Below are positions 7,917 through 53,240 of a stretch of 64,000 nucleotides of DNA, piece by piece. How positions within the stretch are numbered: the first letter of the stretch is position 1; each line of letters opens with the position of its first letter. Origin of the DNA: Porphyromonas sp. COT-239 OH1446 (lineage in GTDB: Bacteria; Bacteroidota; Bacteroidia; Bacteroidales; Porphyromonadaceae); NCBI RefSeq assembly GCF_000768875.1, contig NZ_JRAO01000015.1, forward strand, positions 62,192-126,191, written 5' to 3'. A program made the translations under genes and the position numbers. A model generated the notes under the pieces. It worked only from the letters and a program-made list of their open reading frames with translations. It was not told where the DNA came from and ran no database searches.

Positions 7917-8316
7917 GGGAGGGGGGAGAGGATCTATAAGCCGAGTTCTGTACCCCAAGGCCGAGGCCTCGAGGCGTCTGTCATTTATCTGGGCCAGATG
8001 TCTCCACCTGGCTCTAGCGATCTACCCTCCGACATGGGGCGAGCAACCCTCATAACGTCGGTTTACATGATCTTGCAACCCATAAGGTGTACGGCCCAGC
8101 CTGTTGCCAGGGCTGGCGGTGAGCTCTTACCTCACCTTTTCACCCTTACCGACAGAGGTCGCTCCCGAGGGATTGACTCCTCTGTGGCGGTTCTTTTCTG
8201 TTACACTACTCTGCCCTCACGGACGGCTTCCCGTTAGGAAGTATGGAGCTCTGCGTTGCTCGGACGTTCCTCACCTGCCTCTAGGGCAAATGCGACAGAC
8301 CGATCTTCTCCCCCCT
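7917..8316 (-). ncRNA. rnpB: RNase P RNA (M1 RNA)
   Basis: Read on the minus strand, the 5' region contains GAGGAACGTCC, the P4/CR-I type core element (consensus GAGGAAAGTCC), soon after a GC-rich start. The 3' end contains ACAGAACTCGGCTTATAG, the conserved CR-V tail. The two ends pair through GGGGGGAGAAGATC-like and GATCCTCTCCCCCC-like arms, forming helix P1 and setting the boundaries near 8316 and 7917-7921. The length, about 400 nt, fits bacterial type A RNase P RNA. It is the catalytic subunit that trims tRNA 5' leaders; its protein partner rnpA is at 30220-30648. It follows mrp on the same strand with about 60 nt between and no clear promoter, so readthrough from mrp is possible. The exact ends are estimates. 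Confidence 0.93.
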
Positions 8317-10255: not shown

Positions 10256-10582
10256 TTACTCGAAGAGATTTACCGTCTCACAATACTCCAGCTCTCCCTG
10301 TACGACGAAGCGGATCTCATCCTTGTCGAAACGTCCGACCCCATCTTTGAGGGCATTCTTGACCACATAGTCGAGCAGCTCCTCTTCATCGAACTCGAGG
10401 ACTGCATCCTCGTCGTCGACATCGTCGCCAATCAACCCACGGCTCTCGTAAAAGTCGTAGATGAGGTCTACGAAGTAGACGATGTCGTCGTCGCTGAGCT
10501 TCTCCTTGAGCTCCTGGGGGATATAGTTGCGGATGAAGGCCACAGAAGCACCATCATCGTAGCCGAATATTTCGTCTGCCAT
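10256..10582 (-). CDS. Small acidic protein, conserved in Bacteroidota by my recollection
   Basis: A 108-residue soluble protein, strongly acidic (runs such as [21 protein letters not shown]), with no signal peptide, membrane span or cysteine pair; it has a single Cys near the C-terminus. Predicted content is mostly helical: a middle [19 protein letters not shown] block and a C-terminal strand [18 protein letters not shown] recognise it only as the sort of hypothetical protein seen next to trmB in this phylum, and no function is known to me. It heads the minus-strand run with trmB and mrp, 4 nt apart from trmB. A role in tRNA or Fe-S biology would be guesswork. Confidence 0.75.
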
Positions 10583-10637: not shown

Positions 10638-10911
10638 GCTCCGAGGCATAGACTTCGGGAGACGAATTGCCCCTCGACAGAGCTCCGACTTAGACCTCGA
10701 TCGAGACCCTATCTGGATCTCTGTAGAGCTTCTACTTGGGTCTCGAGTAAGCTCCTATCTGAGTCTCGGTGGCGATCCTATTACCCTCTCTGCTGAGGGT
10801 CTACCCTCCCCTCAGCTGCGCCCCTATCGGCATCGACTGTGAGAGCCAAGTTGAGGCTCAGCGGAGCACCCTGTAGGAGTTCATCGGCCGTCCTATCGAG
10901 GGCCCACTCGA
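10638..10911. repeat. 23-nt tandem repeat array, locus A (about 12 degenerate units)
   Basis: Cutting the gap every 23 nt gives aligned units. The clearest are at 10705, 10728, 10751 and 10774, beginning GACCCTATCTGGATCTC, GCTTCTACTTGGGTCTC, GCTCCTATCTGAGTCTC and GATCCTATTACCCTCTC, most ending in GA, AA or GC. Phase holds outward from these for about six decayed units to 10911 and two or three to the left. The period is not a multiple of three and no reading frame runs through, so it is not coding. It lies between the acidic protein gene and the tRNA gene, both on the minus strand. Apart from this array, the tRNA terminator and the weak -7 box, I see nothing else in 10583-11023. Confidence 0.8.
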
Positions 10912-12213: not shown

Positions 12214-12858
12214 CTAGGGGAAGTAGGGCGAGAGGCGGACACTATCGTCATAACCGAACTCAGCCTCCCGCATCAACAAAGGCCAGGAGAGACGCTTGCC
12301 GTGGCGATGCACCAAGCGGCGCAAGACTCTCGTCTGCCTAAGGTTCAGATACGGATGCCGAGGCAGCTCATCAGGATTGAGGCTAGAGAGCGGATGCCTA
12401 GTCGGAGGGCTCTGCACCTTGAACCAAGACTTGAGTTCGAGGAAGAGATCCTCCTCCATCCCATAGACTTCCTGTAGCTGTAGCGGTGTGTAGTAACCGC
12501 CCAATCGGCTACGCAGGGATAGGATCCGACGAGCGAAAGCAGGGCCAATGCTGGGCACCTTGAGCAGAGTCAGCGAATCGACCGCATTGAGATCGAGCAC
12601 GACCCTGTCCTCGAATTTCTTCACCCCTCCCATGCGATACGCAGCTCCTGGAGGGCCTACATAGTCCTTCGAGGTATATAGGGTATCGGTCGAGGCCTCA
12701 ACGAGCTGCTCAAGGCTATCCCGAGAGGCAGCCGAGAGCCGACCCGTAGAGCCTCCGCCTACAAGGTGAAGTACTAGAGCGGTGAGGACCAAAAGCGACA
12801 AAAGAAGCAGGACAAGCCGCTCCGAGCGACCAACAAAGAGGAAGTGGCGGGGTTTCAT
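12214..12858 (-). CDS. Helix-hairpin-helix (ComEA-like) membrane-anchored protein
   Basis: A 214-residue protein with one N-terminal membrane span (about 14-34, LVLLLLSLLVLTALVLHLV) and an extracytoplasmic body. Residues about 88-140 form paired helix-hairpin-helix motifs of ComEA type: LDLNAVDSLTLLKVPSIGPAFARRILSLR, then GGYYTPLQLQEVYGM. A second, degenerate HHH-like copy (about 160-210, SLNPDELPRHPYLNL) follows. Such proteins bind double-stranded DNA without sequence specificity and in many bacteria take part in DNA uptake. Whether this one does so is unknown. The ABC transporter ATPase gene lies 27 nt upstream. Confidence 0.8.
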   Translation of the reverse strand: MKPRHFLFVGRSERLVLLLLSLLVLTALVLHLVGGGSTGRLSAASRDSLEQLVEASTDTLYTSKDYVGPPGAAYRMGGVKKFEDRVVLDLNAVDSLTLLKVPSIGPAFARRILSLRSRLGGYYTPLQLQEVYGMEEDLFLELKSWFKVQSPPTRHPLSSLNPDELPRHPYLNLRQTRVLRRLVHRHGKRLSWPLLMREAEFGYDDSVRLSPYFP

Positions 12859-17884: not shown

Positions 17885-18062
17885 AGCGTAGAGGCACGAG
17901 AACCCTCACCGGGCGCAAAAGTACTTATTTATTTTCAATTCCCCTGAATAAAAAAGAATTCTAAACTAGATCCAAGCTAACCAATAGGCCATACGACTCG
18001 AAACGAAATGCATCATCCACTAACAGATAATGCTTTACCCTAGCTACAGAGGCTGCCCGAAA

Positions 18063-18223
18063 GGTATAAATAGGATCTCAAGTGAACTCCTACTTATGTC
18101 TCATCTGCGATCCTAATAGGGTCGCAGATGAGAGCCTACTTGAGTCTCTAGAGAGCCTCACTCGATAGTTCAGCCAAGACTTAGAGGGCGGCTCACTCGA
18201 GAGCCTATCGAGAGCATGGCACA
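18063..18223. repeat. 23-nt tandem repeat array, locus B (7 units)
   Basis: Units of exactly 23 nt start at 18063, 18086, 18109, 18132, 18155, 18178 and 18201; the best begin ACTCCTACTTATGTCTC, GATCCTAATAGGGTCGC and GAGCCTACTTGAGTCTC. TCTCATCTGCGA (18099-18110) pairs with 18121-18132, so part can fold as a 12-bp hairpin. The first unit (TAAATAGGATCTCAAGTGA) reads as an inverted copy. It lies between tRNA-Leu and pepT, which are divergent. Within 17885-18337 I otherwise see only the pepT promoter. Confidence 0.8.
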
Positions 18224-28442: not shown

Positions 28443-28580
28443 ATGCCGTCTAAAGCCTCCATTGCGATCCTACTTATACCTCGATGGAGATCCTACTTGA
28501 GCCTCTGTTGAGATCCTATTTATATCTCGATGGAGATCCTATTTGGATCGCTCGAGGGAGGATACTACTCTTTGAGGAGC
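28443..28580. repeat. 23-nt tandem repeat array, locus C (4 strong units)
   Basis: Four nearly identical 23-nt units start at 28466, 28489, 28512 and 28535, opening GATCCTACTTATACCTC, GATCCTACTTGAGCCTC, GATCCTATTTATATCTC and GATCCTATTTGGATCGC; the first three end in GGA or TGA. Weaker units flank them at 28443 and 28558. All run in the plus direction. The array ends about 55 nt before the -7 box of the DUF4271-hemD operon, in a divergent gap with susC. Confidence 0.85.
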
Positions 28581-38858: not shown

Positions 38859-39116
38859 GATAAAAAACGCCAATGCGACACCTCCTCTATCGCCTAGAGC
38901 AGCACTGGGGAGAGGCTCTAAAGCTCTTGGCTCGAGGAGGAGGACAGCCATTGAGGGAGGAGATGTCCCCATCACAAACGAGCTAGACCTCAACATCGGG
39001 AAGAGGACTCCCTGTGCACTAGGTAAATATATCTATCGAGCGAGGGGACATCAGACCCTCTCGAACACACTAGAGAGGGCCCCCGTCCACTGCCCTATAG
39101 CCTCGGGCAAACGAAC

Positions 39117-39256
39117 TAAGTAGGATCGCACTCGAGATCTAAGTAGGAGCTCAATCGAACTCCTATCTATACCTCGAGTAAAGACCTATCTAAGTCTCCA
39201 GAAAAAGTCTATCGAAGCCTCGATCGGGGTCTCATCTAGCCCCTCAGTCGAGGCCC
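39117..39256. repeat. 23-nt repeat array, locus D (mixed orientation)
   Basis: Two inverted units (TAAGTAGGATCGCACTCGAG at 39117 and TAAGTAGGAGCTCAATCGA at 39140, each 23 nt) are followed by forward units at 39159 (ACTCCTATCTATACCTC), 39182 (AGACCTATCTAAGTCTC), 39205 and 39228. The two orientations meet head to head near 39158, where TAGGAG and CTCCTA can pair. It lies between divergent genes (DUF4254 and a sugar transferase). Other than the promoters and a small 7-bp stem near 39051-39078, I see nothing in 38860-39440. Confidence 0.8.
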
Positions 39257-43191: not shown

Positions 43192-43905
43192 TTATGCGAA
43201 GGGGCAAGATGCAGTCCCATTGCAAAGCGACTGGAGGAAGAAGAAGATCACCACCGCAGCAAAGCCTAGGACGATCAGTGTAGAGTAGATATTAGAGATC
43301 ACCTGAAGACGCTTCATCCAGATCGTATTGTTCCATCCGATCGTGTGCAGAGCACTCCAGAAACCATGTGCCAAGTGGAACCACAGGGCAGCTAGCCATA
43401 CGAGGTAGAGCAACACATAAACTGGATTGGCGAAGGTGTAGCGGATCAGGCCAGCCCCATCGGTAGGGCCATTAACCCCTGGGATACCTAGATCATGAAT
43501 GTGCTGTAGCTCTGCCAGCTGCATCTTGGCCCAGAAGTTAAAGAGGTGCAGACCAAGTCCGAGCAATACTACGACACCGAGAGCCATCATGTTTTGAGAG
43601 GCCCACTCTACGCCCTGAGGCTTGCCCACGACACCATAGCGATCTGACCCACGAGCCTTACGGTTCTGATTGGTTAGGATAAGTGCGTAGACGATGTGCA
43701 AGATGAAGAGCAGTGCCAGCCCCTTAGTTGCAACTAAAGCGTACCAGTTAGCCCCGAGGAATGCACAGATCATGTTGTAACCCTCGGCCGAGAACAGAGC
43801 TACCAAGTTCATCGACATGTGGAAGGTTAGGAACAGGATCAACGCAAGCCCAGAAATACTCATCACGAGCTTGCGGCCAATCGAAGATTTAATTAACCAC
43901 GACAT
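43192..43905 (-). CDS. frdC: Fumarate reductase/succinate dehydrogenase cytochrome b558 subunit
   Basis: A 237-residue diheme membrane anchor with five hydrophobic spans (near 11-34, 55-80, 100-124, 155-180, 205-228). Conserved histidines are seen in FLTFHMSMNLVALF, ILHIVYALIL, LGLHLFNFW and WFHLAHGFWSALHTIGW, giving enough axial ligands for two hemes. It carries menaquinone chemistry and anchors FrdAB. It is the first gene of the operon with a TATCTTTG box and a leader of about 85 nt. Confidence 0.94.
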   Translation of the reverse strand: MSWLIKSSIGRKLVMSISGLALILFLTFHMSMNLVALFSAEGYNMICAFLGANWYALVATKGLALLFILHIVYALILTNQNRKARGSDRYGVVGKPQGVEWASQNMMALGVVVLLGLGLHLFNFWAKMQLAELQHIHDLGIPGVNGPTDGAGLIRYTFANPVYVLLYLVWLAALWFHLAHGFWSALHTIGWNNTIWMKRLQVISNIYSTLIVLGFAAVVIFFFLQSLCNGTASCPFA

Positions 43906-43997: not shown

Positions 43998-44005
43998 CAA
44001 AGATA
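43998..44005 (-). promoter_or_regulatory. -7 box for frdCAB
   Basis: The minus strand reads TATCTTTG exactly. A TTG lies upstream at slightly long spacing (about 23 nt). The leader to frdC is about 85 nt. Confidence 0.6.
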
Positions 44006-44178
44006 AGCGAATTAAGGAGATTATTGCACAATAATTGAAGAAAGAAAGATATAATTACACCCTCATGCTCCCTAGGATTAGGTATAAAGCCGAGCAAAGC
44101 ATTCATTCTCAATGCTGCAGACCGTTCGAAGGGGTTCTCGAAGGGAAGATAAGCAAGGGATTGGGAGAAGTTCAGACA

Positions 44179-44455
44179 AGGTCCTATCTGAGCCCTCACA
44201 GAGACATAAGTAGGAGCTCAAGTGAAGTCCTATCTGAGCCTCCACAGAGACATAAGTAGGAGCTCAAGTGAAGTCCTATCTGAGCCTCCACAGAGACATA
44301 AGTAGGAACTCAAGTGAAGTCCTATCTGAGCCTCTGCAGAGACATAAGTAGGAGCTGGGGTGAACGCTCCCCGAGGGCGCAGACGAGGCTCTATCAAGAT
44401 CTCTGCCAGGGGTCAGCAAAGGCCCGAGACAGCGAGACAAATAGGTCTCTCAGAG
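44179..44455. repeat. 23/46-nt repeat array, locus E (most regular copy)
   Basis: Four copies of a 46-nt unit begin at 44181, 44227, 44273 and 44319, exactly 46 nt apart and nearly identical. Each is one forward 23-mer (AAGTCCTATCTGAGCCTC...) and one inverted 23-mer (...ATAAGTAGGAGCTCAAGTG), so the array alternates orientation. Decayed 23-nt units continue at 44387, 44410 and 44433 (the last contains GAGACAAATAGGTCTC). It lies between divergent frdC and the TPP-controlled receptor, ending 35 nt before the -7 box of the latter. The remainder of the 43906-44806 gap is accounted for by the frd promoter, the TPP promoter and the riboswitch. Confidence 0.9.
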
Positions 44456-44490: not shown

Positions 44491-44498
44491 TACCTTTG
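44491..44498 (+). promoter_or_regulatory. -7 box of the TPP riboswitch transcript
   Basis: TACCTTTG matches the consensus exactly. Transcription starting near 44505 would begin just before the TPP aptamer at 44510. Confidence 0.65.
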
Positions 44499-44509
44499 TC
44501 TCGACATAA

Positions 44510-44615
44510 GGACAAAAGGGGTGCTAGCCTCTCAATGCCCCAGCGGCAGAGAGATCGGCAGCTGAGAACAAACCCTCATACCTGATCCAGATAGTACTGG
44601 CGTAGGGATTTATCC
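44510..44615 (+). promoter_or_regulatory. TPP (thiamine pyrophosphate) riboswitch
   Basis: The thi-box core is complete: GGGGTGCT at 44518-44525, GCTGAGA near 44571, ACCCTC, then ACCTGATCCAGATAGTACTGG and GCGTAGGGA ending near 44609. The P1 arms GGACAAA and TTTATCC pair with one mismatch. P3 is a stem near 44535-44560. About 190 nt separate it from the receptor start at 44807 and contain possible expression-platform stems (for example GACC/GGTC near 44731-44745). TPP binding is expected to lower expression of the receptor; whether at transcription or translation I cannot say. Confidence 0.93.
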
Positions 44616-44806
44616 GTGTCGGAGGGCTCGTCTCTCAGGGATCTACCCTACTAGGCATCCGCCTCGAGCCTCACCCCACACCAACATCCACATCAGGTTC
44701 CCATCGGCAGTATTAGACCATCGACAGGTCTCATCATTGTCCTGGTCATGGAGCATCGAGGTTGATGCTTCATTATCGTTCATCATATATATACTTTATA
44801 GCAACG

Positions 44807-47023
44807 ATGAGATCACTCATTACTCTCATGCTCGCAGGCGGTAGCCTGCTCTCGGTAGCAGCCCAATCGACTGCACCAAAGTCCTCCGAAGCAGACTCGC
44901 TTCGAGTAACCACCCTACAGGAGCTCTCCGTCGTAGGCGTACGTGCAGACAAGCGCACCCCTATGGCCTACAGCAACCTGGGCAAGAAAGAGATTGGGAA
45001 GGAGAACCTTGGCCGAGATATCCCCTTCCTGCTGCAGAGCCTTCCCTCGGTCGTCTTCTCAAGCGATGCGGGCACGGGCATCGGTTACACCTCGCTGCGT
45101 GTGCGTGGGGTGGATGCCACAGGGATCAACATCATGGTCAATGGCATCCCTCTCAACGACTCAGAGAGCCAGGCCGTCTTTTGGGTTAATATGCCCGACT
45201 TCGCCTCTAGCCTACAGGAGCTACAACTCCAGAGAGGCGTAGGGACATCGTCCAATGGAGCGGCAGCCTTCGGAGCCAGCCTCAACATGCGCACCGATCA
45301 GATCGGGCTCAAGCCCTATGCGACGGTGAGCGCAGGCGCAGGCTCGTTCGGAACTCGGAGGGCCTCGATCAAGGTAGGCACAGGACGCCTCGGCGGACGC
45401 TGGACGATCGACACCCGACTATCCCGAGTAGAGAGTGCTGGCTATGTCGATAGAGCTTCGGTAGATCAGTACGCTTACTTCCTACAAGCGAGCTATGCCA
45501 CCGAGACGACAATGCTGCGCTATGTAACCTTCGGCGGTAAGCAGATCACAGGCATTGCCTGGCATGGCATCGAGGCCAGCGACGAGAAGAGCTACGGGCG
45601 CACCTACAACCCAGCTGGCTATATGTACACTGATGCTGCAGGCAAGGCACACTATTACCACGATACTGACAACTACAGCCAGCCTCATCATCAGCTCATC
45701 CTCACCCACAGCTTCTCCCCCAGGCTGACGCTCAACCTCACGGCGCACTATACAGCAGGCTTTGGCTACACAGACGAATTCAAAGCAAGCTCTTCACTCA
45801 AGAAGTACGCTCTGAAGAACTATGTAGACGCCTCGGGCAAGCAGATTAAGCGAGCGGACATCATCCGTCGCAAGTACCTCGACAATGACTTCTACGGGGT
45901 CAATGCGATGCTCAACTGGCAGCAGAGGGATTGGCAGCTCAGCGCAGGGCTTAGCGGCAATTACTACAAGGGGCTACACTATGGAGAGCGTCGCTGGATA
46001 TCTAAATACCCCGAAGTGATTTACCCCGAGAGCCGCTACTATGACAATCTAGCGCACAAGACAGACCTCTCAAGCTTCGTCAAGGCCAACTGGCAACTCT
46101 CCGAGCAGCTGAACCTATTCGCTGACCTCCAGCTACGCCACATCGCCTACGACGTACAGGGGACACTGGACAAGTACAGCGATGCGACCAAGGGGATGAG
46201 GGCCATTGACCTGAAGAAGGACTTCCTCTTCCTCAACCCCAAAGCGGGTGTCTACTACCAATTCACCCCCCAGCATCATGCCTTCGCTTCGGTAGCTGTG
46301 GCACAGCGTGAGCCAGGGCGAAAGATCTACACCGAGGGGAGCAACGCTGGTGGCGCAGAGCCCAAGGCCGAGCACCTCATAGACTACGAGCTGGGCTACG
46401 GCTATCGCAGCCACAGACTAAGTCTCTCGGCTGGACTCTACTACATGAGCTATCGAGATCAGCTCGTAGCCAATGGTAAGATCAGCGATGTAGGCGAACC
46501 TCTACTGGAGAATGTTGATCATAGCTACCGCATGGGCCTTGAGCTCTCGGCTAGCTATCGCCCTACGAAGTGGCTTCGCCTCGACGGAGCTCTAGCCCTC
46601 AGCCAGTCTCGCATCAAGGACTACCACAACTTCAGCACAGGCGAGGAGGTGAAGTATAGCAATACCCCCATCGGTTACTCCCCAGAGATTGTCTCCTCTG
46701 CTGCAGCTAGCCTCGTGTTCGGGAGCTTCGAGGCTGGTCTGACCAGCCAATTCGTCGGCAAGCAGTACCTAGACAATACGGGGAGTGAGGCTCGTAAGCT
46801 ACCCGCCTACCACGTCGCAGGCCTGCGCATGAGCTACGACCTCAGCCTGCCAGGGGTGAAGCGTATGAACCTCAGCCTACAGGTGAATAACCTCTTCGAT
46901 GCCAAGTACTCCAGCAATGGTTGGACTTACTTCTACGTCGATGGAGGCAAGGAGGTGAGCCATGTAGGACTCTATCCGCAGGCTGGGATCAACTTCCTCC
47001 TGGGCACAAGCCTGAGCTTCTAG
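44807..47023 (+). CDS. TonB-dependent outer-membrane receptor, probably for thiamine
   Basis: A 738-residue receptor that starts MRSLITLMLAGGSLLSVAAQ (the ATG at 44807 gives a clean signal peptide; an ATG 45 nt upstream adds residues that spoil it). The plug domain has DIPFLLQSLPSVVFSSDAGTGIGYTSLRVRGVDATGINIMVNGIPLNDSESQ, and the barrel ends INFLLGTSLSF, with a terminal Phe for BAM insertion. It is single, with no SusD partner, so it is a classic siderophore/vitamin-type receptor. The TPP riboswitch ahead of it says it is shut off when thiamine is plentiful, which fits thiamine or thiamine-precursor import as known for OMPthi in Bacteroides. Confidence 0.88.
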   Translation: MRSLITLMLAGGSLLSVAAQSTAPKSSEADSLRVTTLQELSVVGVRADKRTPMAYSNLGKKEIGKENLGRDIPFLLQSLPSVVFSSDAGTGIGYTSLRVRGVDATGINIMVNGIPLNDSESQAVFWVNMPDFASSLQELQLQRGVGTSSNGAAAFGASLNMRTDQIGLKPYATVSAGAGSFGTRRASIKVGTGRLGGRWTIDTRLSRVESAGYVDRASVDQYAYFLQASYATETTMLRYVTFGGKQITGIAWHGIEASDEKSYGRTYNPAGYMYTDAAGKAHYYHDTDNYSQPHHQLILTHSFSPRLTLNLTAHYTAGFGYTDEFKASSSLKKYALKNYVDASGKQIKRADIIRRKYLDNDFYGVNAMLNWQQRDWQLSAGLSGNYYKGLHYGERRWISKYPEVIYPESRYYDNLAHKTDLSSFVKANWQLSEQLNLFADLQLRHIAYDVQGTLDKYSDATKGMRAIDLKKDFLFLNPKAGVYYQFTPQHHAFASVAVAQREPGRKIYTEGSNAGGAEPKAEHLIDYELGYGYRSHRLSLSAGLYYMSYRDQLVANGKISDVGEPLLENVDHSYRMGLELSASYRPTKWLRLDGALALSQSRIKDYHNFSTGEEVKYSNTPIGYSPEIVSSAAASLVFGSFEAGLTSQFVGKQYLDNTGSEARKLPAYHVAGLRMSYDLSLPGVKRMNLSLQVNNLFDAKYSSNGWTYFYVDGGKEVSHVGLYPQAGINFLLGTSLSF

Positions 47024-53049: not shown

Positions 53050-53240
53050 CACTCGAGACCCAAATAGGAGCTCATTCGAGCTCCTATTTGGGTCTCTGAT
53101 GCGATCCTATCTGAGCCTCAAGTGAAGTCCTATCTAGACTTCGAGTGCAAACCTCTCGATAGCTCATGCTAGGCCCAACCGAAACCCCGACAGCGAGCCT
53201 ATACGAGACCTCGGTCGAGACCTCCATATTCCCTCAATAG
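53050..53240. repeat. 23-nt repeat array, locus F, with a perfect 19-bp hairpin
   Basis: One inverted unit and one forward unit meet as a perfect hairpin: GAGACCCAAATAGGAGCTC (53055-53073) pairs with 53078-53096 around ATTC. Forward 23-nt units follow at 53080, 53103 (GATCCTATCTGAGCCTC), 53126 (AGTCCTATCTAGACTTC), 53149, 53172, 53195 and 53218, the later ones decayed. It lies downstream of cdaA and upstream of the mazG-like gene, both plus strand. The hairpin could also serve as the cdaA terminator. No other feature is seen in 53004-53400. Confidence 0.85.

Follow-up and report, generated by a model that had tools for sequence, protein, structure and literature searches.

Results

A phased array between two divergent promoter boxes

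The window, which is the whole 64-kb stretch of DNA analysed here, belongs to a Porphyromonas-type draft genome of 1.96 Mb in 37 contigs (hereafter referred to as the own genome). At the locus under study, a tandem array lies between two -7 promoter boxes, at 43998..44005 on the minus strand and at 44491..44498 on the plus strand. The sequence TAnnTTTG is the -7 box of Bacteroidota promoters. The features of the locus are as follows.

43998..44005, minus strand: -7 promoter box TATCTTTG, oriented toward the divergent gene 43192-43905
44178..44357, mixed strand: main array of eight 19-nt units in phase at a step of 23 nt, with a 4-nt linker after each unit
Unit starts in the main array: 44178(+), 44201(-), 44224(+), 44247(-), 44270(+), 44293(-), 44316(+), 44339(-)
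44385..44403, plus strand: decayed in-phase unit (15.7 bits), 46 nt past the last strong unit
44491..44498, plus strand: -7 promoter box TACCTTTG, oriented toward the TonB-type receptor gene and lying 133 nt past the last strong unit
44507..44625, plus strand: TPP riboswitch, past the array and upstream of the receptor gene; a neighbour, not a part of the array
44807..47023, plus strand: TonB-dependent receptor gene, facing the main array

An earlier note on this DNA had described four copies of a 46-nt composite (44181, 44227, 44273 and 44319), each holding one forward and one inverted 23-mer and followed by decayed units. Tandem Repeats Finder reported 44181-44356 with a period of 46, 3.8 copies and 95% matches, and the four 46-mers differ from the second copy by 2, 0, 1 and 5 bases, respectively; the copies are thus real. 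The period is 46 because the underlying units follow one another on an exact 23-nt step and alternate in orientation, and the decay beyond them is represented by the in-phase unit at 44385.

The closest named relatives of the receptor are from Porphyromonadaceae and Porphyromonas. The TPP riboswitch scored 54.9 bits against a cut-off of 54.3, and a similar leader is legible by eye at four other loci (L031, L144, L145 and L149). Elsewhere in the window, an RNase P RNA (bacterial class A) lies at 7921-8311 on the minus strand.

Five further arrays in the window

We scanned the window with a 19-mer profile (22.7 bits) that had been refined on own-genome loci, the window's among them. It found 33 units of at least 10 bits, compared with a mean of 2.7 in Markov sequences. 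Thirty-one of them, a count that takes in the weak in-phase units at 10864 and 44385, fall in six groups with first units at 10680, 18061, 28464, 39111, 44178 and 53055, in which neighbouring units are 23 nt or a multiple of it apart regardless of orientation. The remaining two, at 12651 (13.4 bits) and 20239 (15.9 bits), are within called genes; this is about the number expected by chance. The groups other than the main array are the following.

10680..10767, plus strand: four direct units and a weak in-phase unit at 10864; codirectional gap between tRNA-Met (-) and ORF 10256-10582 (-)
18061..18148, mixed strand: units -,+,-,+; divergent gap; the third unit (18107) is a nearly perfect palindrome
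28464..28551, plus strand: four direct units; divergent gap
39111..39221, mixed strand: units -,-,+,+,+; divergent gap
53055..53142, mixed strand: units -,+,+,+; codirectional gap

The profile therefore recovered the repeat in all five gaps (10.6, 18.1, 28.5, 39.1 and 53.1 kb) where the earlier note had seen it, and our own gene calls agree with its four divergent and two codirectional gaps. Its statement that no convergent gap holds the repeat is correct within the window but not genome-wide, since among the 39 gaps with arrays in 464 kb of the own genome, four are convergent.

Unit design and constraint

The unit consists of a 19-nt quasi-palindrome, GAGNTCCTAYYTRNRYCTC, and a weakly conserved 4-nt linker, which together give the 23-nt step. 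The two ends of the unit, GAG and CTC, complement each other, and inversion therefore leaves the 23-nt phase intact. Among the 129 neighbour spacings of 150 nt or less in 464 kb of own sequence, 120 were exactly 23 nt and the remainder were 24, 46, 47 or 69 nt, which confirms that the units are phased. Toward the edges the arrays decay in phase, and the phase can be traced about four steps past the strong units.

We examined per-position conservation in 83 interior slots, which were picked by phase and given the orientation of best score. T8 and A9 were present in 100% and C7, T18 and C19 in 99% of the slots, whereas the commonest base reached only 45–60% at positions 2, 4, 10 and 13-16. Such uneven constraint is unlike neutral decay, which would strike all positions about equally, and it fits the protein-binding array that the earlier note had offered as one reading.

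Units differed by 5.22 positions per 19 nt within one array and by 5.31 between arrays, indicating that the arrays are not mainly the product of recent local duplication. Skip-one neighbours were closer (4.3 differences), and a few arrays contain 46- or 69-nt higher-order repeats. We looked for covariation across the dyad and found none, the Watson-Crick counts being equal to expectation; the highest mutual information was between near neighbours inside the unit or inside the linker. The absence of dyad covariation points to recognition of the duplex, not of a hairpin, and hairpin maintenance was rejected on this ground.

Copy number and species range

The 186-bp main array had 45 blastn matches in the own genome. 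A unit model had at least 285 matches at E<=10, a lower bound because the unit-model searches scored 150 candidates per genome, and the match positions from both searches cluster into at least 119 loci. In 25 congener genomes, the unit model found no match at E<=0.1 among the 150 candidates scored in each. By profile, 464 kb of the own genome contain 181 units of at least 16 bits and 217 of at least 12 bits, as compared with 1 and 15, respectively, in 1.78 Mb of congener sequence. The arrays thus constitute an interspersed repeat family found in one species among the 26 searched. As far as our searches covered the openly accessible literature, including passages of PMC5771137, they brought up no account of these arrays, nor of 22-nt palindrome arrays that extend over the genus.

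Arrays lie upstream of promoters

For placement, genes in the 464 kb of own sequence were called by a codon-usage script, not taken from annotation. None of the 181 units lies in a called gene or tRNA: 171 are within the counted gaps, and the other ten are outside those gaps and in no called gene. The unit is accordingly not as common inside genes as between them, and the earlier description of it as intergenic and non-coding stands.

Arrays of at least two units were present in 20 of the 38 divergent gaps, 15 of the 198 codirectional gaps and 4 of the 38 convergent gaps. In permutations that placed arrays at random, weighted by gap length with the array length subtracted, 10.3–14.0 divergent gaps were expected (P 0.002 or less) and 4.7–5.7 convergent ones. 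Of the placement bias suggested by the earlier note, the enrichment in divergent gaps was upheld, but convergent gaps were not significantly depleted.

Between array and gene start, TAnnTTTG was found on the correct strand at 43 of 55 array-facing starts (4.1 expected) and on the wrong strand in one case; no such box lay inside an array, and five lay beyond arrays. The arrays are therefore upstream of promoters, with a median distance of 175 bp from array edge to -7 box. In the 13 gaps with boxes on both sides, they are centred between the divergent promoters (asymmetry 0.19, versus 0.5 expected). In array-free gaps of at least 150 bp, 44 of 81 starts also had a -7 box within 300 bp, so that the box is not special to arrays and it is the relative position that matters. 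A fixed distance to the promoter was considered for the own genome and rejected: 15 of 43 distances fell in one 40-bp interval, against 8.6, 11.2 and 13.2 expected with exclusion zones of 0, 80 and 110 bp (P = 0, 0.03 and 0.24), the peak being non-significant at 110 bp. These results show a family of phased 19-nt quasi-palindrome arrays that occupy promoter-upstream spacer DNA and, where the promoters diverge, sit centrally between them.

An unrelated unit in the same position in a second species

The closest ortholog of the receptor among the congeners searched (73% identity) is in the genome designated G016. This genome carries a family with the consensus AAAAGTTCGGGAACTTTT, a 22-nt palindrome unrelated to the own-genome unit. 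In 832 kb of G016 there are 259 sites, two of them in genes, and 190 of 192 short spacings are exactly 22. Most arrays have 4 (18 of 47) or 5 (25 of 47) units, and they are present in 14 of the 41 divergent gaps, 31 of the 359 codirectional gaps and 2 of the 48 convergent gaps. Expectations for the divergent class were 8.0, 9.2 and 10.0 as the margins grew (P 0.006, 0.03 and 0.052), and the divergent enrichment is thus weak under the strictest control. A -7 box lies between array and start at 53 of 59 starts, compared with 9.9 expected and with 9 on the wrong strand, and the arrays are again centred (asymmetry 0.20, 10 gaps). Twenty-eight of the 53 box distances fall in one 40-bp interval, as compared with 10.5–15.6 expected (P 0 of 2000), the value of 15.6 belonging to the strictest control.

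Pooling the flanks from both sides of the G016 arrays gave a single outward consensus that reached about +54 and contained TAA and TTA at a spacing of 22 nt. The G016 array resembles a symmetric element of about 200 bp. Outside its palindromes, conserved A/T-rich words recur at a distance of 22 nt, and the -7 box is often about 155 bp away from the element.

We compared array positions across 93 ortholog pairs. Arrays were upstream of both orthologs in 4 pairs, of the own-genome one alone in 14, of the G016 one alone in 4 and of neither in 71; the raw odds ratio over all 93 pairs, an untested figure, is about 5, and the own side of the table includes 37 loci selected for holding arrays. For long gaps, the corresponding counts were 4, 8, 3 and 15 (Fisher p 0.39). 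The downstream gaps yielded nothing (p 1.0), and 33 orthologous adjacent gaps, 31 of them short, had no array on either side. Shared array slots were thus rejected, the upstream overlap being non-significant in long gaps. The little overlap between the array-bearing genes of the two genomes argues against gene-specific regulation.

A ~22-nt step in most sampled species of the genus

We sampled 18 other species of the genus (~432 kb from G016, 40–100 kb from the others) and applied a periodicity test with a fixed criterion to gaps of at least 100 nt, allowing lags of 15–60. Periodic gaps numbered 58 of 460, with none in shuffled sequences, and 57 of the 58, from 13 of the 18 species, had a lag of 21-23 or 42-46; some congener gaps may contain missed genes. 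The five species lacking a periodic gap were mostly 40-kb samples. By the same test, 30 of 156 own-genome gaps were periodic, 29 of them with such lags. The letters of the repeats vary between species and often between loci, and many are palindromes, such as TGAGGGATATCCCTCA and TTTCCACTAGTGGAAA. Compared with column-shuffled units at p<0.05, 27 of the 58 congener arrays were palindromic (2.9 expected) and 31 were not; in the own genome the figure was 7 of 30. In G020 (L175-L178) and G017 (L187-L190), CCACGTGG palindromes ~22 nt apart flank 21-nt direct repeats. Gaps, above all those of G017, also hold short repeats of the TCTAACCTCTAATC type, which form a family of their own.

For other Bacteroidota, plain lag counts gave strong lags of 115, 21 and 14, with most lag 21-23 pairs at L076, L103 and L066, and the stricter periodic-gap test was used for that reason. 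It returned 12 of 487 gaps (1.5 in shuffles), and since 9 of the 12 have a lag of 21-23 or 45, the array design may extend past the genus. Palindrome-like repeats at a 22-23-nt step are visible in a few gaps of these other Bacteroidota (L042, L066, L082 and L088). In an E. coli control, none of 36 gaps in 100 kb was periodic, where the gene caller covered 59% of one of the two stretches.

Insertion sequences in and near the arrays

Two IS types with different ends occur in the own genome, and for each, 6 of 15 ends lie within 130 bp of a unit, as do 2.6% of random points. P is about 1e-6 if IS ends are independent; the paired ends of one insertion were counted apart, and one second-type flank holds an N. 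All six near ends of the first type split the next unit near its centre. Three of the six near ends of the second type do so, and for three the nearest unit is at least 58 bp away. IS of both types, with the ends TAGTCGTCCCTTAA and ACGTGAGTTCGRTATAA, interrupt array units at L301, L302, L005, L015 and L023, frequently at the centre of the unit, and some own-genome contigs end near such sites. Arrays as the ends of the own IS were rejected: the ends of the two types are unlike the unit, and the IS are inserted into units instead. REP sequences are described as IS targets in the available part of PMC1525189; the two IS types in or near array units are a parallel, although both the repeat and the IS differ.

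Comparison with described repeats

The earlier note knew of no described class that fits the repeat. This was too strong, since BrickBuilt (PMC4596501) and REP/BIME (PMC3733652), in the parts of these papers available, are close kinds, though formal membership fails for both. BrickBuilt is the nearest described repeat of the genus that we found. As described in the accessible part of PMC4596501, BrickBuilt of Porphyromonas gingivalis has a spacerless, intergenic 23-nt unit with imperfect copies, arranged as direct units at 19 loci with a leader, a tail and IS5-like, 12-nt terminal inverted repeats; promoter activity of the leader and tail is reported in E. coli. The tandem intergenic 23-nt unit is shared with the present arrays (120 of 129 spacings of 23, 0 of 181 units in called genes), and the consensus printed there rotates to GAGAYCATARTATCCTCTC+RTRT, that is, 19+4 with GAG...CTC ends as here. 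The letters differ: the BrickBuilt consensus AGAYCATARTATCCTCTCRTRTG, allowing two mismatches, occurs 0 times in the own genome, 217 times in G041, 28 times in G010 and 0 times in the other 23 genomes, and the similarity of its profile to that of the own unit has a P of 0.06. On these two results, BrickBuilt homology was rejected. The present family also differs in having at least 119 mostly small loci and mixed orientation kept in phase. Around 39 own arrays, the 25 commonest flank 8-mers were promoter boxes and unit-like words, among which there was no shared leader, tail or terminal repeat.

According to the available parts of PMC3733652 and PMC2817692, REP/BIME elements are short palindromic extragenic repeats of more than 100 copies with regular spacing and alternating orientation, some of them species-specific. 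The at least 285 palindromic extragenic units found here, regularly stepped and in either orientation in phase, are similar. REPs are tagged at one end with GTAG or CGTC, and most of them are found in codirectional or convergent gaps downstream of genes (PMC3733652, same part). In contrast, the present unit ends in GAG...CTC, with GTAG possible only inside it when position 10 is C (49%), and its arrays are upstream of promoters, enriched in divergent gaps and fixed at a step of 23. The Y1 (REP-type, RAYT) transposase family PF01797 had no match in the own draft genome, while 5 of 14 control genomes were positive; a RAYT-driven REP was rejected for the own genome accordingly.

As for the hallmarks of MITEs, no terminal inverted repeat or target-site duplication was seen among the commonest 8-mers of the own flanks, and in G016 the element is bordered by conserved sequence in inverted orientation. 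The accessible part of PMC4596501 also lists MITE239, MITEPgRS/464 and MITE700 in P. gingivalis, with 41-nt tandem repeats in PgRS. Compared through the printed sequences alone, these elements are likewise dispersed, and the 41-nt PgRS repeats differ from ours. The IS end ACGTGAGTTCG of the own genome resembles the printed end of MITE239, a resemblance seen with the second IS end, ACGTGAGTTCGRTATAA. Rfam at gathering scores gave no match over any window array.

Discussion

Taken together, the constraint, symmetry and phasing of the units suggest that the arrays are most likely arrays of duplex sites for a putative dimeric DNA-binding protein, spread in the manner of REPs. Each unit would be a double-stranded recognition site for such a sequence-specific protein, and the near symmetry of the site would allow either orientation to work, an inverted unit keeping the phase. 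Neighbouring sites, about two helical turns apart, would produce a co-aligned nucleoprotein array. The arrays would have spread over the genome through a REP/BIME-like process with a putative enzyme and would be retained where they keep promoter regions apart, a boundary, topological or regulatory role being the most plausible. We favour a putative protein-bound boundary element over a purely selfish one, and we hold this reading at slightly less than even confidence. Weighing against it are the small overlap between the array-bearing genes of the own genome and G016, the own-genome distance peak that loses significance with a 110-bp exclusion zone, the weak divergent enrichment in G016 under the strictest control, the 5 of 18 congeners with no periodic gap and the 31 of 58 congener arrays that were not palindromic at p<0.05.

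It is quite possible, if on balance doubtful, that the arrays are purely selfish REP- or MITE-like repeats, in which a trans-acting transposase or recombinase recognises and copies the unit and insertions survive only outside the gene, the leader and the core promoter, so that arrays would accumulate between promoters with no role. Hundreds of units in one species of 26, the few slots common to the own genome and G016, the in-phase decay of array edges over about four steps and the landing of insertion sequences in arrays would all be in keeping with this, as would the same inverted consensus reaching ~50 nt on each side of the G016 element, like a miniature element. Recognition by the mobilising enzyme alone would, moreover, yield an identical per-position constraint. 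The decaying mobile element named in the earlier note may also apply. What speaks against a selfish origin is that the own genome has no Y1 transposase match, that the commonest flank 8-mers reveal no common leader, tail or terminal repeat around the own arrays, and that arrays are centred between promoters in both genomes; convergent gaps are not favoured either (4 versus 4.7–5.7), though chance gives a similar outcome.

A minisatellite, descended from or parallel to BrickBuilt and shaped by replication slippage and decay with no recognition, is improbable. It would account for the higher-order repeats of a few arrays and for the closeness of skip-one neighbours, and the 23-nt step and the rotated 19+4 consensus with GAG...CTC are common to BrickBuilt; however, slippage leaves the in-phase inversions and the at least 119 dispersed loci unexplained, units differ as much within arrays as between them, and neither the BrickBuilt pattern search nor the profile comparison linked the two families. 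We regard it as very improbable that the arrays work at the RNA level, forming hairpins in leaders, in terminators or in small RNAs: the units are quasi-palindromic and some are near-perfect palindromes, but most arrays lie upstream of -7 boxes and hence outside leaders, with neither dyad covariation nor an Rfam match at gathering scores over the window arrays.

Returning to the protein-bound boundary element, most other sampled species of the genus have arrays with a ~22-nt step that are often palindromic but use different letters. Changed letters with a kept step would be expected if site and binder co-evolve quickly. We tentatively propose, as an extension that is rather unlikely to hold in full, a genus-wide promoter-boundary system in which palindromes at a ~22-bp step upstream of promoters would be read by a putative fast-evolving dimeric binder, design and position being inherited while the letters are replaced.

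Repeats between bacterial genes have often been classed as debris, or as elements that act at the RNA level downstream of genes. In the two species compared here, whose units are unrelated, phased palindrome arrays share one location, the interval upstream of promoters, and the ~22-bp step, but not the sequence, is found again in 13 of the 18 other species sampled from the genus. If the arrays are read by a protein, they would represent a fast-evolving system that organises the chromosome or insulates promoters, in a genus with a major oral pathogen among its members.
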